DNA of 51,351 bases from the NCBI GenBank assembly GCA_002029975.1, contig LQBE01000018.1, positions 43,768-95,118 on the forward strand. The letters run 5' to 3'. The notes beneath the pieces are model-generated. The model searched no databases and was not told the origin of the DNA. It saw only the letters and a list, made by a program, of their open reading frames with translations. The DNA comes from a delta proteobacterium ML8_F1 (GTDB taxonomy: Bacteria; Bacillota; Clostridia; Peptostreptococcales; Acidaminobacteraceae). Below are positions 15,600-30,436 of this stretch, in pieces (the first letter of the stretch is position 1; each line of letters opens with the position of its first letter). The position numbers and the translations under genes are program-made.

Positions 15600-17282
15600 C
15601 TATTTCCACTCGTGGGTCTCCCTGGTAATGGACAGTTTGTTCATGCGGTAGAGCAGACTCTGCCGGATAATGCCGAGATGCCTGGCGGTTTTTGAAATGT
15701 TCCATCCGTGCCGGTTGAGGCCATTGACAATGAGTTCGGTTTCAAGGGTTCTCAACTGGTCTGGAAGATATTCGGCGGGCCTTGACGGCCTCTGGGGATT
15801 TCGAAGGAGTCTTTCCTTGAGATAATGGGGCATGTGGCCCATATTCAGGACCTTTTCCTCCGGTTCCGCCTGCAGCACCATGTTTTCTATGACATTGTCC
15901 AGTTCCCGGACATTGCCCGGCCAGTAATAGTCTAAAAGCAGCAGCCGCAGTTCACCGGAGAGTTCAGTGATATGCTTTTCAAAGTCTCGGTTGTACCCTT
16001 CAATGAAATAGTTGGCCAGGTGGATAATGTCTTCATGCCTTTCTCTGAGGGTTGGGAGAAAAAGACAATGTCTGGAAATCCTGTAGTAAAGATCCTCCCG
16101 GAGTTTTTTCTGTTTGATGAGTTTCTCGGGATTTTCATTGACCGCACAGATGATCCGGCAGTGGACGGTTTTGCTTTCCAGGCTGCCCACCCTTTGGAAT
16201 TTTTTTTCCTGCAGCATCCGAAGCAGCTTGGTCTGCATGGCGGCGGGCATGGAATTGAGTTCATCCAGAAAGAGGGTGCCACCGGCAACCTCTTCAAGGA
16301 CCCCCCGTTGATCGATACTTCCGGTAAAAGAGCCCTTGGCGGTGCCGAACAGGGTGCTCTCCAGCAGATTCTCCGGTACGGCGGCGCAATTGATGGCGTA
16401 GAATTTTTCCTGGTTGTTTTGGGAAATATTATGGACAGCCTGGGCGAACATCTCTTTTCCCACGCCGGTCTCTCCCACGATGAGCAAGGTGCCGTCTATC
16501 ATCGCATGTTTCTGGGCATCCTTGATCACGGCTTTGAGTTTTTCGCTGGTGCCCTTGATGTCCTTGAATTCATACTGGGTGCCGTTGGTTTTTTTGGATA
16601 TCTGGGGCAGGTCCTTCAACCGGCGCTTCAGTTCTATGGTTTCCGAGAGCATCTCCAGCAGATTGGATTCGTTTTTACTGACTGAGAAGACGGAGAGGGT
16701 TTTTCCGTCCCGGATAATGGGATAGGTGGAGTAGGAAAGATATTTCTGACTCCTGCCCCCCTGTATGTGGGAACGGTAATGATTGAGGATGGGTTTTTGA
16801 GAGCGGAATACCTCCCGGTGTTCTGAGAGCTCTTCCGAATAGTAGTTGTAGACCTCCCAGAGATAGCGGCCGATGACATTTTCCGATTTGAGGCCTTCCA
16901 GGTGTTCCTGGGCGGGATTGTAGAGCACCACCCGGCCGATGCTGTCGCTCATGATGATGCCACTTTCAACCTTTGACAGGACTTCAGAAAGGCAGAAAAC
17001 CTTGTCCCGGAGCTTTTCAAGTTCGGTGAAGTCCACGAGGAGTACAAGATGTTCATTTCCAGAGGAGGGAACCGTCACAAGAGAAAATATCCGGTTGCCG
17101 ATGGTCTTTAAATAGGGCTCCCGGCCCAGATCACCGAGGGTCACTTCGCAGACAGTTTCAAAACCCCGGCCCAGGAGATCCCGGCCCAGAAATTTTTCAG
17201 CTTCCAGGTTGAGTGCTTTGATTCTGCCGGCAACAACCCAGAGGGCTGGAAGGGGAATCTTTTCGACTGTGAAGGTCATCAT
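15600..17282 (-). CDS. Sigma-54-dependent transcriptional activator (PAS + AAA+ + Fis-type HTH, RocR-like)
   Basis: About 560 residues. An N-terminal sensory half carries a PAS-like domain (VESGIIMSDSIGRVVLYNPA). The AAA+ module has Walker A GETGVGKE (about 270-277), the sigma-54 contact loop GSFTGS (about 317-322, where GAFTGA is usual) and Walker B TLFLDEL. A Fis-type helix-turn-helix closes the protein (GLNRHGWNISKTARHLGI). Activators of this layout (RocR, for example) switch on amino-acid catabolism in Bacillota by binding upstream sites and opening sigma-54 promoters. ATG at 17282, five bases after AAAGGAG. It is divergent from the permease gene; sigma-54 promoters at 17606 and 20797 with matching upstream sites make it the likely activator of the hut region. 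Confidence 0.9.
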   Translation of the reverse strand: MMTFTVEKIPLPALWVVAGRIKALNLEAEKFLGRDLLGRGFETVCEVTLGDLGREPYLKTIGNRIFSLVTVPSSGNEHLVLLVDFTELEKLRDKVFCLSEVLSKVESGIIMSDSIGRVVLYNPAQEHLEGLKSENVIGRYLWEVYNYYSEELSEHREVFRSQKPILNHYRSHIQGGRSQKYLSYSTYPIIRDGKTLSVFSVSKNESNLLEMLSETIELKRRLKDLPQISKKTNGTQYEFKDIKGTSEKLKAVIKDAQKHAMIDGTLLIVGETGVGKEMFAQAVHNISQNNQEKFYAINCAAVPENLLESTLFGTAKGSFTGSIDQRGVLEEVAGGTLFLDELNSMPAAMQTKLLRMLQEKKFQRVGSLESKTVHCRIICAVNENPEKLIKQKKLREDLYYRISRHCLFLPTLRERHEDIIHLANYFIEGYNRDFEKHITELSGELRLLLLDYYWPGNVRELDNVIENMVLQAEPEEKVLNMGHMPHYLKERLLRNPQRPSRPAEYLPDQLRTLETELIVNGLNRHGWNISKTARHLGIIRQSLLYRMNKLSITRETHEWK

Positions 17283-17412
17283 GAATTCTCCTTTCGTGAA
17301 CATAATTCATTATAGCATCACCGGAGGTTCTAATCAAAGCATTGGTTCAGTTGCGATCTGCCGGCATTTTTTCAGTGGCCAGGCCCCATAGAAAATCCAC
17401 TGCAGAAAAAAA

Positions 17413-17427: not shown

Positions 17428-17516
17428 AAAATCGACCTGAATGTAGACATTGTCAATCCCTGAAGGGAAGATTTTTCATTAAAATTGTACGTTTTGGCAT
17501 TAGATTGACCCTTTGC

Positions 17517-17535
17517 ATGACTAGATTTTATACAG
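17517..17535 (+). promoter_or_regulatory. Candidate upstream activator site for the permease promoter
   Basis: ATGACTAGATTTTATACAG agrees with the site CTGTATAAAATTTGTACAG at 20708-20726 in 12 of 19 positions, including an identical TACAG end. Its end lies 71 bases before the sigma-54 promoter (17606), the same distance as between 20726 and 20797. This matching phase is the main reason to call it. Confidence 0.55.
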
Positions 17536-17605
17536 ATTGCTCCCTGCCAGGGGAGAAAAACCAAAAAAGATTGCCTGAATTTCAATAAGACGGGCTCTCA
17601 TTCCA

Positions 17606-17621
17606 TGGCATGGACTTTGCA
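17606..17621 (+). promoter_or_regulatory. Sigma-54 (-24/-12) promoter upstream of the permease gene
   Basis: TGGCATGGACTTTGCA matches the TGGCAC-N5-TTGCA consensus with the required GG-N10-GC spacing. It would give a leader of about 190 bases before the ATG at 17827. That leader contains a small hairpin (CGGAT-TTTC-ATCCG, 17756-17769) and no convincing gene. Confidence 0.85.
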
Positions 17622-17826
17622 TATAATTATCATTACCAGGAGATTTACCGGATTTTCCCATGGTGGCTGGAGGCCGGCGACTCATATGGACATCCCGGGT
17701 AAAATGCCACCGGAATATTTCTGGGTCGACAGCAGCGTTGAAAGAATGACGGGTCCGGATTTTCATCCGCCCTCAGAGGGGCCCCTAAACCTGTCATTTT
17801 TCATAATAAATCAAAGGAGGTAGTTT

Positions 17827-19134
17827 ATGGACATCTTATTGAACCCCATTGTCATCTCGGTATTGGTCATGACCGTCCTGAGCCTGCTCAAGATGAATGT
17901 GCTGATTGCACTCATCGTGGCCGCTCTGGTTGGAGGAACTCTTTCAGGCATGACCCTGGGAGACACCATGAATGTGCTGGTGGGAGGGATGGGCGGCAAT
18001 GCCCAGACCGCTCTGAGCTATGTGCTCCTGGGAGCTCTGGCGGCTGCCATCCACAAGACCAAGGCGGCGGAAGCCCTGACCATCTCCATCAGTCGCATGA
18101 TCAAGGGCAAGAAACTGGTACTGCTGTTGATGCTTGCCTTTGTAGCGGCTCTCTCGGGAACGGTGATACCGGTGCATATTGCCTTCATCCCCATCATGAT
18201 TCCTCCGCTGCTGGGGGTCATGAACAAGCTCAAACTGGACCGGCGCGCGGCCGCTTCAGCTCTGGCCTTTGGCCTCAAGGCGCCCTACATTACGATTCCC
18301 GTAGGCTACGGCATCATTTATCACAGTATTATCAAAGACCAGATGGCGGCCAGTGGTCTTGAGGTCACCATGGAGATGATCTGGAAATCCACCTGGGTGG
18401 CCGGACTGGCCATGGTGGTCGGACTGGTGCTGGCCCTGTTCTATTACCGCAAGGACAGAGAATATGAAGAGGTCGAAGGTTTTTCCTTTGAAGAGGACAA
18501 CACCACACAAGTGGCCATGACCAGGGTGCACTGGATTACTCTGATTGCGGGAGTGTCAGCCCTGGTGGTCCAGCTGACCCTCGGATCCCTGCCCCTGGGT
18601 GCCATGGTGGGTCTGGCCATCATGGTAGTCACAAAAACCATCAAATGGACCGATGTGACGGAGGTCATGGAAGGCGGTATCCAAATGATGGGATTCATTG
18701 CCTTTGTCATGCTGGTGGCTTCGGGCTATGGCGCTGTCATGAGAGAGACCGGCGGCATTGACGCCCTGGTTACAGCGGCATCAGCGGCTATGGCGGGAAG
18801 CAAGTCTATCGCTGCTTTTATCATGGTGCTCATTGGTCTTATCGTCACCATGGGGATTGGAACCTCCTTTGGAACAGTCCCGATTCTTGCGGTTATCTAT
18901 GTCCCCCTGGGACTGGCCCTGGATTTCAGTCCTCAGGCCATTATATTGCTCATTGCCACGGCGGCTGCCCTGGGTGATGCCGGTTCTCCGGCCTCGGATA
19001 CCACCCTTGGTCCCACAGCGGGACTCAATGCAGACCATCAGCATGACCATATCTGGGATACCTGTGTCCCGACCTTCATGGCATACAATATTCCCTTGAT
19101 GATCTTCGGAACCATCGGGGCGACTCTGATGTAG
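17827..19134 (+). CDS. Na+/H+ antiporter-family permease, YuiF/NhaC-like; possible histidine or amino acid transporter
   Basis: 435 residues, almost entirely hydrophobic helices. MDILLNPIVISVLVMTVLSLLKMNV, AFGLKAPYITIPVGYGIIYH, and the C-terminal GIGTSFGTVPILAVIYVP, ATAAALGDAGSPASDTTLGPTAG are typical of the YuiF-type branch of the NhaC-like ion transporter superfamily. These are often labelled Na+/H+ antiporters, but many sit in amino acid catabolic loci and probably carry amino acids. AAAGGAGG precedes the ATG. It is expressed from the sigma-54 promoter at 17606 together with the aminotransferase 12 bases downstream. The context points to uptake of the substrate degraded by the hut-type genes (inference). 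Confidence 0.8.
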   Translation: MDILLNPIVISVLVMTVLSLLKMNVLIALIVAALVGGTLSGMTLGDTMNVLVGGMGGNAQTALSYVLLGALAAAIHKTKAAEALTISISRMIKGKKLVLLLMLAFVAALSGTVIPVHIAFIPIMIPPLLGVMNKLKLDRRAAASALAFGLKAPYITIPVGYGIIYHSIIKDQMAASGLEVTMEMIWKSTWVAGLAMVVGLVLALFYYRKDREYEEVEGFSFEEDNTTQVAMTRVHWITLIAGVSALVVQLTLGSLPLGAMVGLAIMVVTKTIKWTDVTEVMEGGIQMMGFIAFVMLVASGYGAVMRETGGIDALVTAASAAMAGSKSIAAFIMVLIGLIVTMGIGTSFGTVPILAVIYVPLGLALDFSPQAIILLIATAAALGDAGSPASDTTLGPTAGLNADHQHDHIWDTCVPTFMAYNIPLMIFGTIGATLM

Positions 19135-19146
19135 AGGAGGAGGAAA

Positions 19147-20499
19147 ATGTCCCTGACGACGATAAAATGCCAGAAGCTGGTTGACGAGGACCACAGTGTC
19201 ATCGCTGAAGCTTCCCGGAGTCATTACTTTCCAGTGGCCATTGCCGAGGGAAGGGGAGCGGTCTTCAAAGACCTTGACGGCAATGGCTTCATCGATCTCA
19301 CCAGCAGTGCCGCGGTCCTCAACACCGGACAGAGCCACCCCAGGGTCGTCGGGGCGGTAAAGGACCAGCTGGAGAAATATATACACTTCAGTTCAGACTA
19401 CCTGTATCAAGAGCCCCAGGTCCGGCTGGCGGAAAAGCTGGTTTCAGTGGTTCCCGGAGATTTCAAGAAAAAGGTTTCCTTTGGACATTCCGGTTCCGAC
19501 GCCATTGACGGTGCCATCAAAATGGCCAGGGCGTATAAACGAAGGGGCGGCATCATCAGCTTCTCCGGTGCCTATCACGGGACGACTTACGGGGCCCTGA
19601 CGGCCAGCGGGATCAGTCACGGCATGCGCAGAGGACTGGGCCCCATGCTCCCGGAGGTGTATCACATGCCTTATCCGGATTGCTACAGATGTCCCATGGG
19701 ACATAAGAAGGATACCTGTCAGCTGGCCTGCATGGATTATTTTGAACAGGTGCTTCAAAGGTCTGTTGTCCCGGATGAGGTTGCAGCGGTGCTCATTGAA
19801 CCCATTGCCGGGGACTTTGGTTTCAGTGAACCGCCCAGGGCCTATTGGGAGGCCCTGAGCAGGCTGTGTCAAAGACACGGGATGCTGCTCATTGTGGACG
19901 AGGTCCAGATGGGCATGGGACGAACCGGCAAATGGTTTTCCTTCGAGCATTTCGGCGTAGTGCCGGATATGGTGGTCATGGGCAAGGCCCTGGGCTCCGG
20001 AATGCCCATCAGTGCGGTGGTGGCCCGGTCTGAAATCATTGACGCCCTGGAGGTTCCCGGACATCTCCTGACCCTGCAGGGCAATCCCCTGTGTGCCCGG
20101 GCGGCTTTAGCCACGCTGGAGGTTATCGAGGAGGAGGGGCTCATTGAACGCTCGGCCCTGCTTGGCAGACAGCTCAAGGAAGCCTTCGAGAGGCTTCAAG
20201 GCACGGTGGATATCATTGGGGAGGTGAGGGGCCGCGGCCTGTGTCTCGGGGTTGACCTGGTCAAGGATCTGAAAACCAGGGAACGGGATCTTAAGGGGGC
20301 GGCAAAGGTGGTCTACGAGGCCTATCAGCGTGGAGTCCTGGTCCTCTTTCTGGCAGGCAATGTTCTGAGAATCCAACCCCCTCTGGTGATCCAGGAGAGT
20401 GAACTCCAGGAGGCCTTTGGTGTGCTCCGTGAAGCTGTGCTGGCCCATGCCAGGGGTGAACTGCCCGATGAGGGACTCTATGAAGTCCAGGGATGGTAG
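19147..20499 (+). CDS. Class III (subgroup II) PLP-dependent aminotransferase, GABA/ornithine aminotransferase-like
   Basis: 450 residues, full length for the family. IVDEVQMGMGRTGKWFSFEHF contains the PLP-contacting Asp, and VVMGKALGSGMPIS holds the Schiff-base Lys. An insertion with clustered Cys (YPDCYRCPMGHKKDTCQLAC, about residues 177-196) resembles that of archaeal and mammalian GABA aminotransferases, where Cys may hold a metal or cluster. These enzymes act on omega-amino groups (GABA, ornithine, beta-alanine). The exact substrate is unclear, and no such step exists in the standard histidine pathway. Co-transcribed with the permease; a strong hairpin follows at 20517-20567. Confidence 0.85.
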   Translation: MSLTTIKCQKLVDEDHSVIAEASRSHYFPVAIAEGRGAVFKDLDGNGFIDLTSSAAVLNTGQSHPRVVGAVKDQLEKYIHFSSDYLYQEPQVRLAEKLVSVVPGDFKKKVSFGHSGSDAIDGAIKMARAYKRRGGIISFSGAYHGTTYGALTASGISHGMRRGLGPMLPEVYHMPYPDCYRCPMGHKKDTCQLACMDYFEQVLQRSVVPDEVAAVLIEPIAGDFGFSEPPRAYWEALSRLCQRHGMLLIVDEVQMGMGRTGKWFSFEHFGVVPDMVVMGKALGSGMPISAVVARSEIIDALEVPGHLLTLQGNPLCARAALATLEVIEEEGLIERSALLGRQLKEAFERLQGTVDIIGEVRGRGLCLGVDLVKDLKTRERDLKGAAKVVYEAYQRGVLVLFLAGNVLRIQPPLVIQESELQEAFGVLREAVLAHARGELPDEGLYEVQGW

Positions 20500-20516
20500 T
20501 GAATTGGGAAATGCCT

Positions 20517-20567
20517 GAGGCAACCCCCTTTGGATGGGCTTTAGAAAGTAGAGCCCATCCTTGCCTC
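20517..20567 (+). terminator. Terminator-like hairpin after the aminotransferase gene
   Basis: Inner stem GGATGGGCT / AGCCCATCC (20532-20540 and 20552-20560) and outer stem GAGGCAA / TTGCCTC (20517-20523 and 20561-20567) with an unpaired CCCCCTTT bulge. The downstream GTTTTC is only a weak T run. It separates the permease-aminotransferase unit from the sigma-54 promoter of hutU. Confidence 0.6.
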
Positions 20568-20613
20568 GTTTTCAGCCTCTGACAGCCGACCCAAGAAAGA
20601 ATCTGTTCTAAGG

Positions 20614-20628
20614 TGTATAAAATTTATA
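20614..20628 (+). promoter_or_regulatory. Distal activator-type site
   Basis: TGTATAAAATTTATA contains a perfect 13-bp palindrome TATAAAATTTATA and shares TGTATAAAATTT with the proximal site 94 bases downstream. A further half-site in reverse, AAAATTTTACACAG, lies at 20661-20674. Repeated copies are typical of sigma-54 activator binding regions. Confidence 0.5.
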
Positions 20629-20705
20629 GTGTCTTGCGCCGTTAAGATCCCGGAGTGAAAAAAATTTTACACAGGACCAGGAAAAGCGTAGACAAGGTCT
20701 GATAA

Positions 20706-20728
20706 AGCTGTATAAAATTTGTACAGCT
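20706..20728 (+). promoter_or_regulatory. Proximal upstream activator site of the hutU promoter
   Basis: A 23-bp near-palindrome with only one mismatched pair; its core is CTGTATAAAATTTGTACAG (20708-20726). It ends 71 bases before the sigma-54 promoter at 20797, a typical distance for an enhancer-binding protein. The matching element at 17517-17535 has the same phase. The divergent activator at 15600-17282 is the likely ligand. Confidence 0.65.
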
Positions 20729-20796
20729 CTTGGTGCTGCAAGCAGTAAAAAAAGGGTGAAACCCTTCAAAAAGGCTGTTTTTTACAGTGGAATCCC

Positions 20797-20812
20797 TGGC
20801 ATGGATTTTGCT
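20797..20812 (+). promoter_or_regulatory. Sigma-54 (-24/-12) promoter of the hut operon
   Basis: TGGCATGGATTTTGCT has the GG-N10-GC spacing and differs at two positions from the promoter at 17606. It lies 62 bases before the hutU start. The 359-base gap between aminotransferase and hutU is thus filled by a terminator, three activator-type sites and this promoter. Confidence 0.87.
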
Positions 20813-20858: not shown

Positions 20859-22574
20859 GTGAGTAAAGCCGAGATTTTGTATGAAGTGAAAGCACAACGT
20901 GGAGATACCCTGCGCTGCAAGGGATGGAAGCAGGAGACACTCCTCAGAATGTTGGAGAATAACATGGAGAATGCCGAAATTCCCGAGCTGCTGGTAATCT
21001 ATGGTGGCAATGGGAAGTGTGCCCGCAACTGGGAATCCTATCACGCCATTGTCAAATCCCTCAAGGAACTGGAAAACGATGAAACCCTGGTGATTCAGTC
21101 GGGGATGCCCGTGGCCATTTTCAAAACCCATCGATTGGCTCCCAGGGTGGTTATGGCGACCACCAACATCATGAAGGCCACCTGGGAGATTTTCTACGAT
21201 CTGCAGGACAAGAACCTCACCATGTTCGCCCAGTATACGGCGGCACCCTGGGAGTATATCGGCACCCAGGGGGTTATCCAGGGAACCTTTGAAACCCTGT
21301 CCGCCATTGCCATGAAGCGATACAACAATGATCTCAAAGGCAGAATCTATCTCACGGCGGGAGCCGGTGGCATGGGTGGCAATCAAAGCTGGGCTATGAA
21401 AATGCACGGCGGTGTGGCCATCATTGTGGATGCCGATGAGCGGGTGATCGACCGCCGGATTGAAAAGAACTATCTGGACATGAAGGTCCACAGCCTGGAT
21501 GAAGCCATTGACATTGCCAAGAAGGCCGCAGGTGAGGGAACGCCCCTGTCAGTTGCCGTGGTGGGCAATGCGGCGGACCTCTTTGAAAAAGCCTATGAGC
21601 AGGGTTTCATGCCCGACATCATGAGTGAGATGTGCCCCTGCCATGACCCCCTCTCCTATATTCCATCAGGTTACACCGGTGAGCAAGCGGACGAATACCG
21701 GGTGAGAGACCGGGAGGCCTATCTCCATGAGGCCAGGGAAACCATGAAACGACAGCTTCGCGCCATGAATCAATTCCACGCCAGGGGCGTCGAGGTCTTC
21801 GAATACGGGACCAGCATCCGCAAGGAATGCCGGGATGCCGGAATGCCGGAAGAGGAAGCCATGACGATTCCAGGATTTGTCTCGGAGTACATCAGACCCC
21901 TCTTCTGTGAAGGAAGGGGCCCTTTCCGCTGGACCTGTATCTCAGGAGACCCGGAGGATCTGAGAAAAACCGACGATCTGGCCCTCGAAATCTGCAAGGG
22001 GGATCCCCTGGTGGAGCGTTGGATCAACCTGGCCAGGAAGCATCTGCCCATTGAGGCGCTGCCGGCAAGAATCTGCTATATGGGATTTGGTCAGCGCAAG
22101 CGCTTCGGACTGGCGGTGAATGAAATGGTGAAAAACGGGGAACTCAAGGGTCCCGTGGCTTTCTCGAGGGACAACCTGGACTCGGGTTCTATCGTCAATC
22201 CCACCTTTGAATCAGAGAACATGAAGGACGGCGGGGACCTGATTTCCGACTGGCCCTATCTCAACGGCTTGCTGAATGCTTCAGCGGGATGCGATTTGAT
22301 TGCCATTCAGGCCAACTACTCCATGGGAGAGGCAGTGCACACCGGCGTGACTATGATTGCGGATGGCACTGAAGAAGCAGCCCTTAGACTGGAAGCCTCC
22401 CTGACGGTGGACTCGGGTATCGGTGTGGTGCGTCATGCCCAGGCCGGCTATGAGACGGCCAGGGATGTGGCCAATGGCAAGGGCAAGCTTACTACTGACA
22501 GCATCAAGGTGCCACTGTGGTGGCAGCCTGCCGAGTTTGTCACCTTCGGCCCCGACGGGAAACCGCCGAGATAG
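20859..22574 (+). CDS. hutU: Urocanate hydratase-family protein (HutU-like, divergent)
   Basis: 571 residues. The family is clear: YGGNGKCARNWESYHAI, LTAGAGGMGGNQ (NAD-binding Gly motif), YIRPLFCEGRGPFRW, SGDPEDLRKTD, LPARICYMGFGQR and GVVRHAQAGYETA. Urocanase adds water to urocanate to give imidazolonepropionate, using tightly bound NAD+. Several core motifs differ from the textbook enzyme: GGAQPLA reads GGNQSWA, FDYGNN reads FEYGTS, and HHGGGVGMG is replaced by QANYSMG two residues shorter. A C-terminal tail of about 25 residues is extra. It may be an anaerobe-specific branch or act on a modified urocanate. GTG start eight bases after TAGGAGG. First gene of the sigma-54 hut operon. Confidence 0.82.
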   Translation: MSKAEILYEVKAQRGDTLRCKGWKQETLLRMLENNMENAEIPELLVIYGGNGKCARNWESYHAIVKSLKELENDETLVIQSGMPVAIFKTHRLAPRVVMATTNIMKATWEIFYDLQDKNLTMFAQYTAAPWEYIGTQGVIQGTFETLSAIAMKRYNNDLKGRIYLTAGAGGMGGNQSWAMKMHGGVAIIVDADERVIDRRIEKNYLDMKVHSLDEAIDIAKKAAGEGTPLSVAVVGNAADLFEKAYEQGFMPDIMSEMCPCHDPLSYIPSGYTGEQADEYRVRDREAYLHEARETMKRQLRAMNQFHARGVEVFEYGTSIRKECRDAGMPEEEAMTIPGFVSEYIRPLFCEGRGPFRWTCISGDPEDLRKTDDLALEICKGDPLVERWINLARKHLPIEALPARICYMGFGQRKRFGLAVNEMVKNGELKGPVAFSRDNLDSGSIVNPTFESENMKDGGDLISDWPYLNGLLNASAGCDLIAIQANYSMGEAVHTGVTMIADGTEEAALRLEASLTVDSGIGVVRHAQAGYETARDVANGKGKLTTDSIKVPLWWQPAEFVTFGPDGKPPR

Positions 22575-22674: not shown

Positions 22675-24204
22675 ATGATGCAGACAATTTATATAGACGG
22701 CGACAATTTGACCATTGATGAGGTTGTGAAGGTTTCCAGGGAAATGTATGGGGTTGCACTGACGGAAGAGGCCAAAAGAAAAATCATCCAGTCCAGAAAA
22801 CGCGTCGAAAATTTTTTGCAAAAAGGTCGCGCGATTTATGGCATCAACACGGGTTTTGGGAAATTCAGTGATGTGAGCATCCCCCCGGACCAGATAGAAG
22901 CGCTGCAGCATAATCTCATTGTAGCTGATGCCGTGGGGGTGGGAGACCCCTTCAAGAGCGATGTGGTGCGGGCTGTCATGCTTTTGAGAATCAATGCCCT
23001 GGCCAAGGGTTATTCCGGTATCCGTCTCGAGGTGGTCCAGACCCTTGTTGACATGCTCAACCGGCACCTGCATCCTGTCATCAGGGAGAAGGGTTCCGTG
23101 GGTTCCAGCGGTGATTTGTGTCCCCTGGCCCATATGGTGCTGCCCATGATCGGCCTGGGGAAAGCAGAGCTGGGCGGGGTGGTCATGGAGGGCCTGGAGG
23201 CCATGGAGACGGTAGGGCTGGCCCCGGTCCGCCTCAAGGCCAAGGAGGGCCTGGCCCTCATCAACGGGACCTGTGTCATGACCGCCGTGGGGGCCCTGGC
23301 AGTGCATGATGCCCAGGTGCTGGCCAAAACAGCGGACATTATCGCCACCCTCACGATTGAAGCCCTGGAGGGCATTACGGACGCCTTTGACGAGAGAATC
23401 CATCTTGCAAGACCCCACCAGGGCCAGATGGATACGGCGAAAAATATTCTCACCCTGTGTGAGGGTTCAAAGCTTACCACAAGACAGGGCGAACTCAGAA
23501 TGCAGGATGCCTATTCCCTGCGATGCACGCCCCAGATTCATGGCGCCAGTCGACTGGCACTGGACTATGTCCGGGGGGTGGTCCAGACGGAAATCAATTC
23601 TGCCACGGACAATCCTTTGATTTTCGAAGAGGGGGACAACGCTCTTTCAGGAGGCAATTTCCACGGCCAGCCTGTGGCTATCGCCATGGACACTCTGGGG
23701 ATTGCCATGGCAGAGTACGCCAATATTTCTGAAAGGAGAACCGAAAGACTGCTCAATCCCGCCCTCAGTGGCCTTCCGGCTTTTCTGGTCAAGGAAGGGG
23801 GCGTCAACTGCGGGTTTATGGTTCCCCAGTATGCCGCGGCGGCCCTGGTTTCAGAAAACAAGATTCTGGCCCATCCGGCCAGTGTGGATTCTATCCCGAC
23901 TTCGGCAAACCAGGAGGATCATGTGAGTATGGGAACCATTGCCGCAAGAAAGGCCAGAACCATTATTGAACACGGTCAGTCGGTGCTGGGAATTGAATGG
24001 ATGTGCGGGGCCCAGGCCGTTGATTTCAAGGAACCGGAAAAACTGGGCAAGGGTTCCGGGGCGGCCTATGAACTCCTCAGGCAGCAGGTGACCTTCCTGG
24101 CCTCTGACCGCATATTTTATGAAGAAATGGACCTGACCCGGGAGATGATTGCAAGCGCAGCGCTCTTGAAGGCCGTTGAAGAAAAGACCCGGGAGCTGCT
24201 GTAG
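22675..24204 (+). CDS. hutH: Histidine ammonia-lyase
   Basis: 509 residues, full length. Landmarks: YGINTGFGKFSDV, the MIO-forming region KGSVGSSGDLCPLAHM, KEGLALINGTCVMTA, MQDAYSLRCTPQIHGA, SGGNFHGQPVAIAMD, GGVNCGFMVPQYAAAAL and PTSANQEDHVSMG. The enzyme eliminates ammonia from L-histidine to give trans-urocanate through an MIO prosthetic group formed by self-cyclisation of Ala-Ser-Gly. Here the triad is Ser144-Ser145-Gly146 (bases 23104-23112), which can still cyclise chemically but is less common. The ATG at 22675 is followed by a second ATG; GAGGAG precedes both. Second gene of the hut operon, after a hairpin. Confidence 0.92.
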   Translation: MMQTIYIDGDNLTIDEVVKVSREMYGVALTEEAKRKIIQSRKRVENFLQKGRAIYGINTGFGKFSDVSIPPDQIEALQHNLIVADAVGVGDPFKSDVVRAVMLLRINALAKGYSGIRLEVVQTLVDMLNRHLHPVIREKGSVGSSGDLCPLAHMVLPMIGLGKAELGGVVMEGLEAMETVGLAPVRLKAKEGLALINGTCVMTAVGALAVHDAQVLAKTADIIATLTIEALEGITDAFDERIHLARPHQGQMDTAKNILTLCEGSKLTTRQGELRMQDAYSLRCTPQIHGASRLALDYVRGVVQTEINSATDNPLIFEEGDNALSGGNFHGQPVAIAMDTLGIAMAEYANISERRTERLLNPALSGLPAFLVKEGGVNCGFMVPQYAAAALVSENKILAHPASVDSIPTSANQEDHVSMGTIAARKARTIIEHGQSVLGIEWMCGAQAVDFKEPEKLGKGSGAAYELLRQQVTFLASDRIFYEEMDLTREMIASAALLKAVEEKTRELL

Positions 24205-24317
24205 ACCAGGGACCCTCTTTACCGGAGGGGCTGCTGACGGGTACGGGAAAGAGCCCTTGTATCCAGTCGAGGATTGAAACCTATAAAACATCAGTGTTCA
24301 TGAGGAGTGGATACCCT

Positions 24318-25574
24318 ATGCAAAGCAACCACGGCACCACGGTCATCGCCAATGCCCGGAATCTTTTGACCATGGCCGAAAACGCCCAAGACCACATTGG
24401 ATTGGTCACTAATGGATTTCTTGGAATCCGGGGCGAAAAAATCGTAGCGGTGGGCACGGAAAAAGCGGTCTATGAAGCCCTCGGGGGTCCGCCTGAGCAG
24501 GTCATCGATGCCAGTGGCATGACGGTCCTGCCGGGATTTGTCGATGCCCATACCCATGTGGTTTTCGGCGGGACCCGGGTGGCGGAATACGCCGCATCCA
24601 TGACGCCTGAAGGATATGAGCGATTCAAGTCTTCAGGAGCCCTGAAAGGGCTTGAAGCCACTATCCGCATGACCCGGGAGGCGGACCGGGAAAACCTGAA
24701 GGCCCAGGCAAAGAAGCGTATTCTCGATATGCTGGAGCATGGCACCACGACGGTAGAAAGCAAAAGCGGTTACGGTCTGGATATCGCAACTGAACTCAAG
24801 CAGCTCATGGTCAACCGGGAGCTGGATGAAGAACTTCCCGTGGATATTGTTTCAACCTTTCTGGGCGCCCACGGGTGGCCGCCGGAAATGACTAAAGAGG
24901 ACTACCTTCACCACCTGCTGGAAGAAATGATGCCGAGAATTGCCGCAACAGGTCTGGCGGAATTCTGTGACATCTGGTGTGATGAGGGACATTTCAGCCG
25001 GGAGGAATCGGAGTTGGTCCTCTCAAAGGGCCGTGCCCTGGGCATGGAACCCAAGATCCATACCGGAGCCTATTCCTATATTGGCGGGGGGGACTTGGCC
25101 GCTGAAATGAAAATGGTATCAACGGAGCATCTCAACTATACGCCGCCAAAGACGCTTAAAAAACTTGCCGAGGCCGGAGTGCCCGGGGTACTGCTGCCGG
25201 GAACGGATTTTTCAGTGCGTCATCCCATGCCGGTCAAGGGTCGGGATCTCATTGACGCCGGAATGACTGTGGCCCTGGGAACCAACTGCTGTCCCGGTGC
25301 CTGGATTACCTCCATGCAGCTGGTGATGACCCTGATTTGCCGCAACCACGGTCTTACGGTCGAGGAGGCCTTGAGAGCCGCCACCCTGGGCAGTGCAAGG
25401 GCCATCAGGCGCGACAGCGACCGCGGATCCCTGGAAGTCGGAAAACTTGCGGATATCCAGATCTGGGACACCCCCCATTATGAGGATGTCATCTACCATC
25501 TTGGGGAGAATCAGGTCACCATGGTATTCAAGCGCGGACTTATGGTAATTGACAGAAAAAAGACACAGGAGTAG
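24318..25574 (+). CDS. hutI: Imidazolonepropionase (HutI-like, altered active-site residues)
   Basis: 418 residues of an amidohydrolase-fold enzyme that opens the ring of imidazolone-5-propionate to N-formimino-L-glutamate. VLPGFVDAHTHVVFGGTR provides the HxH metal motif; VESKSGYGLD, MVSTEHLNYTPP and the C-terminal AATLGSARAIRRDSDRGSLEVGKLAD are family features. Two expected elements are changed. KIHTGAYS stands where HADE/HADQ usually occurs. ALGTNCCPGAW has Asn323 (25284-25286) where the metal-binding Asp (SDFNPG or TDCCPG) is expected. The ATG at 24318 follows GAGGAGTGG by ten bases; an in-frame GTG at 24294 has weaker support. Between hutH and fchA in the operon. Confidence 0.85.
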   Translation: MQSNHGTTVIANARNLLTMAENAQDHIGLVTNGFLGIRGEKIVAVGTEKAVYEALGGPPEQVIDASGMTVLPGFVDAHTHVVFGGTRVAEYAASMTPEGYERFKSSGALKGLEATIRMTREADRENLKAQAKKRILDMLEHGTTTVESKSGYGLDIATELKQLMVNRELDEELPVDIVSTFLGAHGWPPEMTKEDYLHHLLEEMMPRIAATGLAEFCDIWCDEGHFSREESELVLSKGRALGMEPKIHTGAYSYIGGGDLAAEMKMVSTEHLNYTPPKTLKKLAEAGVPGVLLPGTDFSVRHPMPVKGRDLIDAGMTVALGTNCCPGAWITSMQLVMTLICRNHGLTVEEALRAATLGSARAIRRDSDRGSLEVGKLADIQIWDTPHYEDVIYHLGENQVTMVFKRGLMVIDRKKTQE

Positions 25575-25589
25575 TATGGAGGTGAGAGT

Positions 25590-26141
25590 GTGGAAGTGTT
25601 ACACAAAATAATCGATTCAAAAAACTTTCAGGTGGGCGGCGGCGCCGCGGCAGCCCTTAGTGGGGCGATGGCTGCGGGTATGGCCGCCATGGTGGCGAGA
25701 CTGTCCGTCAAGAAGGGCTATGGCCTTCCTGGCGAAACCTACCGGCAGTTGACGGATGAATTGGATGCCATGGCCAGGACCCTGACAGAGGGGGCGGCCA
25801 GGGATGAGGAGGCTTTTGTGGGCCTCATGAAGGCAATGAAAATGCCCCTAGAGACCCAAGAAGAGGTGTCCCGCAAAGAGGCGGCCGTAGAAGCCGGGAG
25901 TATCGCCGCTTCAGAGGTGCCCCTGGCCAACGGCAGGCTTTGCCGGGAGGTGCTTTTGAAAGTTGCTGTCCTTGAGGGCAGATCAAATCCGAGAGCGGCC
26001 ACGGATTTGCTGATTGCGAAGAAACTGGCAGCCATCGGTCTGGAAGGATGCCTTTTGAACGTCGAGGCCAATCTTCCGGCCATCCACAACGAAGCAGTGC
26101 TCAAAAAATTCATGGACGCTGTGGCGTCATTGAGAGAATAA
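25590..26141 (+). CDS. fchA: Formimidoyl-tetrahydrofolate cyclodeaminase
   Basis: 183 residues, one FTCD_C-type helical domain, as in clostridial FchA. QVGGGAAAALSGAMAAGMAAMVARL is the conserved N-terminal glycine/alanine helix, and GRSNPRAATDLLIAKKLA with LEGCLLNVEANL are typical of the C-terminal half. The enzyme turns 5-formimino-THF into 5,10-methenyl-THF and ammonia, feeding the one-carbon pool. GTG start after TGGAGGTGAGA, 15 bases behind hutI. It follows the ring-opening enzyme and precedes the formimino-transferase, so both folate steps are encoded side by side as separate proteins, unlike the fused mammalian FTCD. Confidence 0.9.
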   Translation: MEVLHKIIDSKNFQVGGGAAAALSGAMAAGMAAMVARLSVKKGYGLPGETYRQLTDELDAMARTLTEGAARDEEAFVGLMKAMKMPLETQEEVSRKEAAVEAGSIAASEVPLANGRLCREVLLKVAVLEGRSNPRAATDLLIAKKLAAIGLEGCLLNVEANLPAIHNEAVLKKFMDAVASLRE

Positions 26142-26156: not shown

Positions 26157-27029
26157 ATGAAACGATTACTGGCAGAGGTCAATATTTCAGAGGGAAGGGA
26201 TCCGGAGCTCATTGACCAGGTGCTCCTGGCCCTGAAGGCCCATGAGGTGGATGTCATTGATGTGGACTCTGAGCCCAACCACAATCGCACAGTATTCACC
26301 TACATCGGAGAGCCGCAGGCCGTACTGGAGGGAACCAAAGCCCTGGTGGCCAAAGCGGTGGCACTTATCGACATGACCCGGCACACCGGAAGTCATCCCA
26401 GAATGGGAGCCGTGGATGTGGTGCCCTTTGTCCCAGTGAAGGAGGTCAGCATCGAAGAGGCTCTGGAAGTGGCGAAAAGCTTCGGCAGGTTCCTGGGGGA
26501 CCTTGGGGTTCCGGTCTACTATTACGAAGAGGCGGCCACCCGACCGGAGCGCAGTTCCCTGGTCAAAATCCGCAAAGGGCAGTATGAGGCCCTGGCGGAA
26601 AAAATGACCCGGGAGGAGTGGCGGCCCGATGAAGGTCCCTTTGAGTTTGTGCCCAAAAGCGGCGCGACAGTGACAGGGGTCAGGTTTCCCCTGGTGGCCT
26701 TCAATGTCAACTTGAAGACAGAAGATCTGGCGGTCTGTAAAAAAATTGTCCAGGCGATCCGAGGGGCTACAGGGGGCTACACCCATGTGAGGGCCATTGC
26801 CCTGCCTCTGGAAGGAGAGGGTCTGACCCAGATTTCAATGAATCTGGTGAATTACGAGAAAACACCGATTCATCGTGTCTTTGAGACCATCAAGTCGGAG
26901 GCGGCAAGCTACGGCATTCTGGTACAAGGTACCGAGCTCGTGGGCCCCGTACCGCTTATGGCCCTGAAGGATGTTCTGGAACATTATCTGCAGACCCATT
27001 CTTTTTCCATGGATCAGATTTATTCGTAG
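26157..27029 (+). CDS. ftcD: Glutamate formimidoyltransferase
   Basis: 290 residues, the usual length for the stand-alone bacterial enzyme. KRLLAEVNISEGRDPELI, DVDSEPNHNRTVFTYIG, and HTGSHPRMGAVDVVPFVPV (conserved His/Arg of the formiminotransferase N domain) are clear, as are NVNLKTEDL and ISMNLVNYEKTPIHRVFE in the C domain. It moves the formimino group of N-formimino-glutamate to tetrahydrofolate, releasing glutamate. AAGGAG lies ten bases before the ATG. With fchA it completes the non-formamide route from histidine to glutamate. Confidence 0.92.
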   Translation: MKRLLAEVNISEGRDPELIDQVLLALKAHEVDVIDVDSEPNHNRTVFTYIGEPQAVLEGTKALVAKAVALIDMTRHTGSHPRMGAVDVVPFVPVKEVSIEEALEVAKSFGRFLGDLGVPVYYYEEAATRPERSSLVKIRKGQYEALAEKMTREEWRPDEGPFEFVPKSGATVTGVRFPLVAFNVNLKTEDLAVCKKIVQAIRGATGGYTHVRAIALPLEGEGLTQISMNLVNYEKTPIHRVFETIKSEAASYGILVQGTELVGPVPLMALKDVLEHYLQTHSFSMDQIYS

Positions 27030-27247
27030 GAAGCCCGGTATCAGCCTGCAGATTATTGCCCTGGTCACTTTGAGAATCGATCTTTCCTTGAAGGAGGGAC
27101 AGCCTGGTCTGATGAGTCACTCCTGGGGCATAATCCCATAAAGTCTTGACAGTGGAGGTGGTTGAAACAGTTGATTTGACGTAACAGAGAGCATGGTTTT
27201 TGTCAATTATCGCTTTCGGAAAATTTGTCGAAATCAAGGAGGTAACT

Positions 27248-28495
27248 ATGAAGAACAAACGGTATGGAATTTTTACGCTGCTTCTTGTACTGGCCCTGGT
27301 ATTTTCATTGACTGCCTGCGCCTCGGAACAACCTGCAGAGGAACCGCCGGCTGAAGAGCCTCAGGCTGAAGAGCCTCAGGCCGAGGAACCACCGGCTGAA
27401 GAGGAACCCAAAGAGCCGATCCGGATTGGATTTTTCGCCCCATTGACAGGTCCGGCGGCGGCGGATGGTCTCAGCACTTCCAATTCAGCGGAACTGGCAG
27501 TGGAGATTATCAATGAAAGTGGCGGTATCGATGGCAGACCCGTGGAACTGGTCAGCTATGACGACGGTCTTGACACCAAGCAGGCCGTGAGCATCGCCCA
27601 ACGGCTTACCACACGGGATGATGTGGTGGCAGTGGTCAGCGGCAGTTATAGCGGTCCCACCCGGGTGGCAGCTCCCATTTTCCAGGATGCCGGTATCCCT
27701 ATGATTTCAGGTTACGCAATTCATCCAGATGTCACTGATTCCGGAGACTTTATCTTTTCCCAGTCCTTCCCCGGCCAGGTTCAGGGCAAGGCAGGCGGCG
27801 TGGTAGCCGTTGACATGCTTGATGCCAAGAGAATTTCCATTATTGCCGTGGATATTGACTTCGGGAAAACCCTGGCAGCCGCCTTCAAGGATTATGTCGT
27901 ACCCAAAGGGGCTGAAATCGTTTCAGAGGACTACTTTGGCATGGGTGACAGTGAATTTGCACCCATCGTCACAAAACTCAAGGATGAAATCAAACCAGAC
28001 TTGATTTATATGGCCAACTACTACGGCCATGGTGCAGAGATTGTCCGTCAGCTCAAGAGCCAGGGATTCGATGTCCAGGTCCTTGGAACAGAAGGGATTG
28101 ACTCTTATCAATTCTTCGAGATTGCCGGCGAGGATGCCGAGGGTGTCATGATCACCACCAACATGAACCGTGATTCTGAAGACCAGGCCACCCAGGAATA
28201 CATCAAGACCTACACAGAGAAGTTCGGCATTGTCCCTGACATGGTGGGCGCTTCAGTTTACGATGCCTTCCAGGTGCTTTTCAAAGCCATCGGAGAGGTC
28301 GGTACAGATCCTGAACTGATTCGGGATACCATCAAGGATCTCAAGGGCTTTAAAACCGTTACCGGCGAATTGATTGAATACGCTCCCACGCGAGAAGCGA
28401 TTAAACCGGTTCAGATTCAAATCATAGAAGACGGGGCTTACCACTACTACGAGGAAATTGACGATTTGGAAATCATTACCCCGGAACCTCGATAG
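27248..28495 (+). CDS. LivJ-type ABC transporter substrate-binding lipoprotein
   Basis: About 415 residues. The signal MKNKRYGIFTLLLVLALVF with lipobox SLTAC (Cys near residue 23) is followed by a linker of repeated AEEP(P/Q) units, encoded by near-identical 15-base repeats at about 27334-27408. The mature domain is a type 1 periplasmic binding fold: IRIGFFAPLTGPAAADG, NESGGIDGRPVELVSYDDG, VAVVSGSYSGPTRVAAPIF. The class binds branched-chain or other amino acids; within this operon histidine, urocanate or glutamate is possible (inference). The ATG at 27248 follows CAAGGAGG, and 218 bases separate it from ftcD with no clear promoter. A strong hairpin-T run follows, which should keep this protein more abundant than the membrane parts. 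Confidence 0.88.
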   Translation: MKNKRYGIFTLLLVLALVFSLTACASEQPAEEPPAEEPQAEEPQAEEPPAEEEPKEPIRIGFFAPLTGPAAADGLSTSNSAELAVEIINESGGIDGRPVELVSYDDGLDTKQAVSIAQRLTTRDDVVAVVSGSYSGPTRVAAPIFQDAGIPMISGYAIHPDVTDSGDFIFSQSFPGQVQGKAGGVVAVDMLDAKRISIIAVDIDFGKTLAAAFKDYVVPKGAEIVSEDYFGMGDSEFAPIVTKLKDEIKPDLIYMANYYGHGAEIVRQLKSQGFDVQVLGTEGIDSYQFFEIAGEDAEGVMITTNMNRDSEDQATQEYIKTYTEKFGIVPDMVGASVYDAFQVLFKAIGEVGTDPELIRDTIKDLKGFKTVTGELIEYAPTREAIKPVQIQIIEDGAYHYYEEIDDLEIITPEPR

Positions 28496-28501
28496 AGAAT
28501 C

Positions 28502-28526
28502 AAGGGGGGGATACCCCCCTTTTTTC
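28502..28526 (+). terminator. Intrinsic terminator (probably leaky) between binding protein and permease
   Basis: AAGGGGGG - loop - CCCCCCTT followed by TTTTT. Located inside the transporter operon, seven bases after the binding-protein stop; partial read-through would set a high ratio of binding protein to permease. Confidence 0.8.
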
Positions 28527-28651
28527 CTTTCATCGTTTGCGGACATTCTCTTGATCAACAGTCGAAAACGACCATCAGTTTTCCCTTGACAAGACTCCGG
28601 GGGGAGCTGTTCTTGAAGAATTTTATCTACAATTCAAGGGAGAGGTGATTT

Positions 28652-29524
28652 ATGCTATCTCAACAAATAGTCAACGGTATCATGATCGGCAGCGTTTATG
28701 CCCTGACGGCAATGGGTGCCACTCTGATCTACGGCATTCTCAGAATTCTTGACATTGCCAATGCCGGAGCCTATGCTGTGGGGGCTTATGCCGGCTGGTA
28801 CATGTACAGTGTCACTGAAAATATTCTGCTGGCCTTTGTTTTTGCCATGCTGTTTACCGGAATTATCGGAGTTTTGGTCCAGAAATTCATCTATTTCCCA
28901 ATTATCAGCAAACCCAATGTCATTGCCATTGTTCCCCTGATTACCAGTGTGGGACTGTTCACTTTGACCGGGGACATGCTCAGACTGATATTCGGACCCA
29001 ATGTCAAAAATATGAACATGACCTTTAAAATCAATGCCGTGGAAATCGGCAATGTCAGAATCAGTGCGGAATGGATTTTTATTGTGCTCCTGACCGCAAC
29101 ACTCTTTTTTGTGCTCTGGTTCATTCTCAACAAGACCAAACTGGGACTCGCCTGGCGGGCAACTGCAGCCGACACCGAGATTGCCAAGACCATGGGGGTC
29201 AACGTACATATTTCCATGGCGCTGAGCTATGTGCTGGGTTATGGATTTGCTGCCGCTGCAGGAACCATGGTGGGGGTGCTTTACAATTCGATTTATCCGA
29301 CCATGGGGGATATCCCTTCATATAAAATGCTGGCAATCATTGTTCTGGGAGGATTGGGAAATCCCCTGGGAACGGTCGTTGCAGGCATTGTCATAGGATT
29401 GTCGGAAACCCTGGTTTCAGCCTATTTCGGGTCTATCATGCCCCGGGACGTCATTGCCTTTGTCGTACTGATTATCGTGCTTTTAGTCAAGCCTTCAGGG
29501 CTGGTTACCAGAAAGAACACATAA
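28652..29524 (+). CDS. LivH-type branched-chain/amino acid ABC transporter permease
   Basis: 290 residues with multiple hydrophobic helices. QQIVNGIMIGSVYALTAMGATLIYGILRILDIANAG is the family N-terminus, and TKLGLAWRATAADTEIAKTMGVNV with MLAIIVLGGLGNPLGTVVAG carry the conserved cytoplasmic loop and C-terminal motif of LivH permeases. It forms the membrane channel with the LivM protein 12 bases downstream. AGAGGTG precedes the ATG. The 156-base gap upstream holds the terminator at 28502; a TTGACA at about 28585 has no good -10 partner. Confidence 0.9.
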   Translation: MLSQQIVNGIMIGSVYALTAMGATLIYGILRILDIANAGAYAVGAYAGWYMYSVTENILLAFVFAMLFTGIIGVLVQKFIYFPIISKPNVIAIVPLITSVGLFTLTGDMLRLIFGPNVKNMNMTFKINAVEIGNVRISAEWIFIVLLTATLFFVLWFILNKTKLGLAWRATAADTEIAKTMGVNVHISMALSYVLGYGFAAAAGTMVGVLYNSIYPTMGDIPSYKMLAIIVLGGLGNPLGTVVAGIVIGLSETLVSAYFGSIMPRDVIAFVVLIIVLLVKPSGLVTRKNT

Positions 29525-29536
29525 GGGGGGAAGACC

Positions 29537-30436
29537 ATGTATCTAACCGTTGTTTCTGTCAATATCGGAATTTTCATACTGTTGGCTCTCAGTCTCAATA
29601 TCATCACGGGTTATGCCGGTCAGCCGGCGCTTGGTCATGCCGCTTTTTTTGGCATTGGCGCCTATACCTCGGCTATTTTAACGACAAGTTATGGCATGAA
29701 CTTCTGGCTTTCCATTCCCTTTGCCTTCATCATGGCGGGAATCATGGGCGGATTTTTGGGATTGATCAGTATTCGGATGCGGGATGATTTCCTGGCCATC
29801 ACCAGTATCGGTATCAATTTTGTCGTCGTGGCAATTTTTCAGTACTCGGACTTTTTCGGGGGATCCCTGGGGATTTCCCTCAAAAGACCCTATTTCTTTG
29901 GGATGAAGGTGACCGCCACAGGCTATCTGATACTGATCGGACTGATGATTCTGGGAACGGTCCTTTTGATTCTGAAAATGAAACGATCCTGGTTCGGACT
30001 GGCGCTTTCAAGCATCCGCAATGACGAAACCGCCGCGGCTTCCTTTGGAATCGATGTCAATCGATACAAAGTACTGGCCTTTACCCTGGGGACGGCCATT
30101 GCGGGGATGACTGGAGCCGTCTATGCCCATCATATGACCTTTATCTATTCAAGTGATTTTGCCTTTATTGTCTCGATCAGTATCCTGTCCATGGTGGTCA
30201 TCGGAGGAATAGGGACCATAAGGGGACCGATTTTTGGAGCGATTCTCCTGGGTGCCGCTCCGGAGCTTTTCAGATTCTTCGCCGACTACCGCATGATTGT
30301 CTACGGGGGACTGCTGGTATTCATGATGCGTTTTCAATCCCAGGGATTTCTCGGTTATGACAGTGTGCTGGTCAGGGCCTTCAAGAAACTGTTTCCCGGG
30401 GGTTTGAAGAAGAAGGAGGGTGAAATCATTGGGTGA
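29537..30436 (+). CDS. LivM-type branched-chain/amino acid ABC transporter permease
   Basis: 299 residues. LSLNIITGYAGQPALGHAAFFGIGAYTSAIL is the standard LivM signature near the N-terminus. SSIRNDETAAASFGIDVNRYK and VVIGGIGTIRGPIFGAILLG are the other conserved segments. It lacks the long extra N-terminal helices of E. coli LivM, as is common in Bacillota. AGGGGGGAAG precedes the ATG. Its end overlaps the ATP-binding gene by eight bases, so the two are probably translationally coupled. Confidence 0.9.
   Translation: MYLTVVSVNIGIFILLALSLNIITGYAGQPALGHAAFFGIGAYTSAILTTSYGMNFWLSIPFAFIMAGIMGGFLGLISIRMRDDFLAITSIGINFVVVAIFQYSDFFGGSLGISLKRPYFFGMKVTATGYLILIGLMILGTVLLILKMKRSWFGLALSSIRNDETAAASFGIDVNRYKVLAFTLGTAIAGMTGAVYAHHMTFIYSSDFAFIVSISILSMVVIGGIGTIRGPIFGAILLGAAPELFRFFADYRMIVYGGLLVFMMRFQSQGFLGYDSVLVRAFKKLFPGGLKKKEGEIIG

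Follow-up and report, generated by a model that had tools for sequence, protein, structure and literature searches.

The DNA analyzed here, referred to as the window, is a 51,351-nucleotide stretch from the genome of delta proteobacterium ML8_F1 (assembly GCA_002029975.1, contig LQBE01000018.1, positions 43,768 to 95,118 of the forward strand), an organism placed by GTDB in the Acidaminobacteraceae of the Clostridia (Bacillota). It carries the genes of histidine utilization (hut), preceded by a transporter unit and by the gene of a sigma-54 activator, or bacterial enhancer-binding protein (bEBP). Comparison with related genomes argues strongly for a histidine-utilization regulon of two units, very probably run by one dedicated sigma-54 activator that is encoded divergently from the transporter unit. 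An earlier examination of the DNA letters (the sequence-only reading) had linked a RocR-like regulator to the hut genes, and this link is supported by the relatives through the co-occurrence of promoter and activator and the conservation of the site motif.

As the sequence-only reading had proposed, each unit is preceded by a sigma-54 promoter. TGGCATGGACTTTGCA (17606..17621, forward strand), before the transporter unit, and TGGCATGGATTTTGCT (20797..20812, forward strand), before the hut operon, both have the exact -24/-12 consensus and are the sole matches in the window to the pattern [TC]GGCA[CT]-N5-TTGC[ATG]. A search for TGGCAYGN4TTGCW that tolerated one mismatch gave two hits in the window, where shuffled sequence gave 0.94 on average, and at least two were obtained in 24 of 100 shuffles; two promoter matches are within chance when the window alone is considered. 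Genome-wide, the exact pattern TGGCAYN5TTGCW gave 19 matches versus 3 for the reversed control, indicating that most of the exact matches are probably real. The genome, 2.38 Mb in 58 contigs, also encodes RpoN (Sigma54_DBD, 197 bits). Furthermore, the YuiF genes of two related loci (L055 and L134) have a promoter and sites of the same kind as the transporter unit of the window. Another sigma-54-like sequence at 17494-17518 (TTGGCAT...TTTGCAT) has 17 rather than 10 bases from GG to GC and is probably no promoter.

Palindromes were found at the same distance from both promoters, confirming the equal spacing that had been pointed out. ATGACTAGATTTTATACAG (17517..17535, forward strand) is the putative upstream activating sequence (UAS) of the transporter unit and CTGTATAAAATTTGTACAG (20708..20726, forward strand) the main activator site before hutU; the offset from site end to promoter start is 71 in both cases (70 bases between), and in each the center is 80 bases ahead of the promoter. 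When the 51-kb window was scored with a 19-bp matrix built from 28 sites of clostridial relatives, the window being excluded from the training, four places ranked highest: 20708 (22.6 bits), 20613 (16.1), 26735, which is inside ftcD (14.7), and 17517 (13.8). The next place scored 8.5, and three of the top four coincide with positions singled out by the sequence-only reading. When the upstream stretch was shuffled 2000 times with dinucleotides preserved, the score of the 17517 site, which has one good and one poor half, was reached by 0.05% and that of the 20708 site by none. Two more copies of the palindrome had been claimed at hutU. The distal one (20613..20631, forward strand; center 175 bases before the promoter) is strong, while that at 20654..20672 (forward strand) is a weak, half-matching activator-site-like sequence of 4.1 bits; as a third-best score it was reached by 0.05% of the shuffles. 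Within the 3-kb loci around the 19 exact sigma-54 promoters found genome-wide, sites scoring more than 10 bits were confined to the two loci in the window.

The association of promoter and activator was evaluated in relatives. A HutU scan of named genomes gave 76 loci, from the best 80 of 156 matches; locus L061 was left out since its hutU runs off the contig, and 75 were usable. A promoter was counted within 160 bp of hutU and an activator above 390 bits. A sigma-54 element precedes hutU in 44 of the 75 loci. Promoter and activator were both present in 39, the promoter alone in 5, the activator alone in 1 and neither in 30 (Fisher p 1e-14, a value that overstates the evidence, given the kinship of the loci); the co-occurrence suggested from the window is thus found in its relatives. 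Where both were present, the activator was at most 800 bp from hutU in 35 of 39 loci. The promoter of the activator-only locus (L079) has one mismatch, and in one promoter-only locus (L056) the contig breaks off within such an activator gene, of which the C-terminal part is present. The 30 loci lacking both belong to Synergistota, Desulfobacterota and other phyla and, within the Bacillota, to Oscillospiraceae, Lachnospiraceae, Syntrophomonadaceae and bacilli (L075 and L076 among them). Many of the sequences are short, and a missing activator means one not seen in the stretch examined. Among 61 genomes around the window, an activator above 420 bits together with a hutU match of at least 66% was found in 5, such a hutU only in one (G012) and neither in 55. 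The scheme is also seen in Bacillaceae, Caryophanaceae and Paenibacillaceae.

In a quick tree, the 43 hut-linked activators, that of the window and two paralogues (L138 and L139) form one group comprising 46 of the 75 rows, with a Shimodaira-Hasegawa-like approximate likelihood ratio test (SH-aLRT) value of 99. The paralogue of L138 is beside yuiF and a racemase-like gene, and that of L139 is beside an ATP-binding cassette (ABC) transporter. The activator nearest to that of the window, at 53%, is from L122, where the promoters of hutU and fchA-ftcD have sites centered at 80 and 79. The activators of L055 (Lutibacter sp. B2) and L059 (Calditrichales bacterium MX18-03) group with clostridial ones, and the Bacteroidota and Calditrichota names of these genomes look wrong. 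Some loci have two hutU copies, each with its own sigma-54 promoter: L055 (2168-3880 and 8980-10692, with identical scores against the window hutU), L058 (7945-9657 and 10001-11713), L093, L095, L101, L120, L121 and L127.

The site motif was recovered by an unbiased count, in which all perfect 4-bp dyads with gaps of 6-15 were tallied in 320 bases upstream with no motif supplied. The top dyad was TGTA-N9-TACA in the clostridial regions (13 of 20) and TGCA-N9-TGCA in the others (25 of 41). Leave-one-locus-out matrices gave a best site at a shuffle p of 0.01 or less in 17 of 20 clostridial promoters, the misses being L062 (0.040; its sites read TGCATA..TATGCA), L063 (0.218) and L138 (0.018). Thus, by dyad count and by matrix, such palindromes do lie upstream of sigma-54 hutU promoters in related genomes, as the sequence-only reading had supposed. 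The recognition region of the activator is approximately LGIIRQSLxYRMKKL in the TGTA type and LGITRQSLQYHIKKH in the TGCA type, which suggests that the residues of the helix-turn-helix (HTH) that differ between the motif types read the base. Because there is essentially one evolutionary split, the match between HTH and motif is suggestive rather than proof.

Spacing was analyzed in a clostridial set of 22 promoters, including those of the L122 fchA-ftcD and L139 ABC genes; 20 of them have a site of at least 9 bits. The distance between adjacent sites is 63-66 bp in 16 of 20 cases, the rest being 21, 22, 35 and 95. The center of the proximal site is at 79-82 in 8 of the 20 promoters with a site, then at 92-96, 103-104 and 115-116, and also at 48, 54 and 73. 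The Rayleigh p for periods of 10-12 bp, against uniform positions, was 0.0006, and the distances outside 79-82 tend toward steps of 11-12 bp. In bacilli, where sites were taken by dyad match, the first-to-last spacing is 77-83 bp in 23 of 31, with proximal sites mostly near 106, 116, 127 and 138; the best period there is 11.0, with p 0.0115 when calculated on distinct values. The supposed conservation of the 71-base phase therefore stands only in part: the register recurs, as centers at 79-82, and it is not universal. A universal 71-base rule was rejected, the proximal centers spanning 48 to 116, and the distance was kept as a recurrent register. It is one among stepwise positions, with no fixed rule.

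The activator gene (15600..17303, minus strand) is divergent from the first unit, as correctly noted from the sequence. Its product, classed as a hut-linked bEBP by Pfam, an AlphaFold model and its orthologue group, matches PF00158 (Sigma54_activat, 202 bits) and PF02954 (Fis-type HTH, 45 bits), and consists of a variable N-terminal PAS-like domain (residues ~1-95), a conserved PAS domain (~104-210), an AAA+ domain (250-410) and a Fis-type HTH (517-557). The likeness to RocR put forward by the sequence-only reading applies to the general architecture. The best curated model is PrdR (NCBIfam NF041552), with 340 bits against a cut-off of 795. A receiver domain is absent from its Pfam matches, and the N-terminal region is PAS. 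The PAS domain at ~104-210 scored just over the Pfam cut-off and is also seen in the AlphaFold model. The model of residues 1-240, with a mean predicted local distance difference test (pLDDT) score of 85 and a predicted TM-score (pTM) of 0.56, resembles tandem-PAS structures. A fold search with it returned many PAS structures, DosP, MmoS and NifL-NifA first, at query TM-scores below 0.5, and gave no pointer to any ligand. For comparison of the conserved PAS, the 46 members of the group were aligned with 20 of the 29 tree rows outside it, the other nine being left out. W149, Y154, E161, H162, H179 and Y191 are invariant in all 46, whereas the prevailing residues at these six positions in the 20 other activators are L, a mixture, T, L, Y and N, with E161 in one and H162 in two. 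As called, the activators of L007, L008, L079 and L138 start just before the conserved PAS and lack the N-terminal domain.

Several observations weigh against a single dedicated activator or temper the evidence for it. The hutU sites of the window are 95 bp apart and its transporter unit has a single, half-poor site, unlike the usual pair. Loci L083 and L101 have the promoter and no activator above 390 bits in the stretch examined. L063 has both activator and promoter yet no site of the motif, L138, whose activator has an altered HTH, has no site of at least 9 bits, and a clear site pair was not found in L074, L077, L083 and L086. In the non-clostridial set, TGCA-N13-TGCA (23 of 41) is close behind the top dyad, without explanation. 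The best period of the clostridial distances, 11.75 bp (R 0.66, falling to 0.42 at 10.5 bp), is longer than the helical repeat of B-DNA. Kinship among the loci makes the p-values optimistic, the tree is a quick version with SH-aLRT only, and the 390-bit threshold that defines the hut-linked rows favors their grouping in it. H179, one of the fingerprint residues that might form a pocket, sits in a model segment (179-181) with pLDDT below 50. Finally, promoters, sites, their conservation, the single activator group, the co-occurrence with hutU promoters and rpoN were computed; binding of the sites by the activator is inferred.

It could be argued that the palindromes serve a general nitrogen or carbon activator and that the neighboring activator is nearby by accident, the promoters being sigma-54 dependent all the same. 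Such general activators, CbrB and NtrC, drive hutU in Pseudomonas (PMC8871633), and the activator query gave 18 matches in the window genome. Nevertheless, a single activator group tracks the hutU promoters in 39 of 75 loci, the motif changes along with the HTH of that group and, contrary to what a global regulator would show, sites scoring above 10 bits are lacking from the 3-kb loci of all 17 remaining exact sigma-54 promoters, making this explanation quite improbable. Two regulators might also share the work, the neighboring activator serving the transporter/racemase unit only and another protein serving hutU. The paralogue in Acidaminobacter hydrogenoformans (L138), a clostridial member of the Bacillota, seems to serve just such a unit, and genome G022 has separate activators beside hutU (contig C25) and beside yuiF and a racemase-like gene (C36). 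In the window genome, however, a single member of the group was seen, and the next best activator there, 39% identical, falls outside it; one motif in the same register is present at both promoters, and the window activator pairs with the hutU-adjacent activator of L122. A division between two regulators is considered unlikely to the same degree.

The palindromes could instead be a repressor operator or chance AT-rich dyads, with hut under HutP, HutC or HisR as in other Bacillota. It is known that yuiF is under HisR in many Bacillota (PMC9413887), and a HutP-family protein was found in 19 of 38 genomes searched, namely that of the window and those of 37 chosen loci. This view can hardly be credited, for the sites lie 48-182 bases before the promoter, mostly as pairs of fixed spacing, which fits enhancers rather than operators, and HutP (PF09021) was not found in the window genome (G000) while the B. 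subtilis control was positive; HutC and HisR were not searched for there. The idea that HutP excludes the activator elsewhere was dropped, since HutP occurs in those 19 of 38 genomes though it is absent from that of the window.

One dedicated activator for both units, the reading preferred here, would act as follows. The PAS-AAA+-HTH protein would bind TGTATAAAATTTATACA-type dyads, one before the yuiF-type gene and two strong and one weak before hutU. Its PAS region would sense a signal from the pathway, most likely histidine or urocanate. By analogy with established bEBPs, the signal-bound activator would oligomerize and loop to the sigma-54 RNA polymerase (E-sigma54) at -24/-12, and its hydrolysis of ATP would open both promoters, so that histidine uptake and breakdown would rise together; the racemase-like gene would serve histidine as well. 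It is established that bEBPs bind upstream sites and that ATP hydrolysis and DNA looping then lead to opening of the sigma-54 promoter (PMC6615313).

A broader proposal is put forward tentatively, at somewhat less than even confidence. The activators may constitute an undescribed pathway-specific bEBP family for histidine use in Clostridia and aerobic Bacilli, in which the second PAS domain would be a cytosolic imidazole sensor (histidine or urocanate) acting via W149, Y154, E161, H162, H179 and Y191, and which would also govern an uptake and racemization unit that could open the pathway to D-histidine. The PAS fingerprint is a ligand-site hypothesis open to testing. Moreover, the paired sites, the stepwise promoter distances and the parallel shift of half-site (TGTA to TGCA) and HTH residues provide a natural series for the study of enhancer geometry and recognition. 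If the scheme is true, bacteria such as Neobacillus, Sporosarcina and Lysinibacillus should require sigL/rpoN and the activator to grow on histidine.

The hut operon, on the forward strand, begins with hutU, encoding urocanate hydratase, at 20859..22574 (GTG start; TIGR01228, 647 bits vs a cut-off of 375). It is followed by hutH (histidine ammonia-lyase) at 22675..24204 (TIGR01225, 676 bits vs 539), hutI (imidazolonepropionase) at 24294..25574 (TIGR01224, 364 bits vs 298), a gene for a cyclodeaminase/cyclohydrolase-like protein (FTCD_C, FchA-like) at 25590..26141 (PF04961, 129 bits; FchA model 85 bits, below its cut-off of 275) and ftcD (glutamate formimidoyltransferase) at 26157..27029 (TIGR02024, 405 bits vs 221). 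A second, long-form urocanate-hydratase-like protein, 33-35% identical, is encoded on another contig of the genome (G000:C32, 10143-11750; L140) beside formiminotransferase-like genes. No sigma-54 promoter was found for it in the 9.3 kb around, and the long form is common in relatives.

The transporter unit, also on the forward strand, starts with a gene for a YuiF-type permease at 17827..19134 (Pfam Na_H_antiport_2 and Na_H_antiporter). Relatives of it above 300 bits are present in 26 of the 76 named hutU loci, on the same strand as hutU in 25, and the main histidine transporter of S. aureus has been shown to be a YuiF-type protein (PMC10817146). Because of this gene neighborhood and the histidine transport by the S. 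aureus protein, the product is probably a histidine permease. The second gene (19147..20499) encodes a class III aminotransferase-fold protein. Among proteins of solved structure it is closest to isoleucine 2-epimerase and to broad amino-acid racemases, the transaminases being farther off; of the 25 curated families among the matches listed, none reached its cut-off. An aminotransferase by family name, it is possibly a histidine racemase. A relative above 400 bits occurs in 1 of the 76 named loci and in L138, and the tie of this gene to hut appears weak.

The 14.7-bit activator-site match inside ftcD (26735-26753) is located ~450 bases before ABC transporter genes (27200-31884). Downstream of the match there is no exact sigma-54 promoter; the best candidate in a loose scan of 26401-27260 was TGGAACATTATCTGCA at 26977, with two departures from the consensus, which is possibly a weak promoter for the ABC operon. 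In another genome of the same family (G002, locus L139), related ABC genes come with a sigma-54 promoter of their own, two sites spaced by 65 bp and a member of the hut-linked activator group, and for this reason the ABC transporter of the window may also serve histidine or a related substrate.

According to the textbooks, hut genes are controlled by HutP in Bacillus or by HutC in Proteobacteria. HutP of Bacillus subtilis acts by antitermination and thus shares the pathway and not the mechanism with the system proposed here. RocR and other PAS-type amino-acid activators of Bacillota have the PAS-AAA+-HTH architecture and a local target operon. The present group differs from activators of the PrdR/RocR type by its group-specific PAS residues and hut targets, and the activator falls well short of the PrdR model (340 vs 795 bits), while PrdR is alike in having sites of the TGT-N10-12-ACA type (PMC6615313). 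In Pseudomonas, hutU is likewise reached by sigma-54 type activators from distant sites. These are general two-component response regulators, accompanied by the urocanate-responsive repressor HutC (PMC8871633), whereas a dedicated PAS activator is encoded beside hut in the window.

A close parallel is HiaR, predicted as a sigma-54 activator for hiaL-hyp-hutH in Clostridium (Nie et al. 2019, PMC6615313), and both systems are predicted sigma-54 activator regulons for histidine catabolism in Clostridia. HiaR targets hiaL-hyp-hutH, while the window activator would target yuiF with the racemase-like gene and the hutU-hutH-hutI-fchA-like-ftcD operon. Moreover, the HiaR motif was placed outside the TGT-N10-12-ACA class and Table 1 of that paper lists no hutU, whereas the window site, TGTA-N9-TACA or TGT-N11-ACA, is inside this class. 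Identity with HiaR was set aside on the ground of targets and motif as described in the available part of that paper. In Clostridium sp. BSD9I1 (L200, 4641-9847), a different activator (38% identical, not in the tree) precedes a transporter gene and a hutH-like gene (40%) with their own sigma-54 promoter. The arrangement resembles that of HiaR, and the same genome carries a member of the hut-linked family on another contig (L062).

In B. thuringiensis, deletion of sigL hardly changed growth on histidine (doubling 15.93 vs 16.91 h; PMC4428206), in contrast with the prediction for the bacilli listed above. A later survey of sigma-54 regulons has neither hut nor urocan in the available main text (PMC12316311), and in the available part of a study on how histidine genes are regulated in Gram-positive bacteria, the subjects are HisR and T-boxes, hutH is named once and sigma54 does not occur (PMC9413887). 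As far as was found, the hutU-linked activator family and its spread into aerobic bacilli are not described in the open-licence literature. The sequence-only reading had envisaged a different control scheme for a Bacillota anaerobe. Activator-driven hut genes are indeed indicated here, but the principle was already known from Pseudomonas and from the prediction of HiaR in Clostridium, and it is not confined to anaerobes. Within the known sigma-54 scheme, the system appears to be a new, widespread and pathway-specific bEBP regulon that is common in part of the Bacillota.

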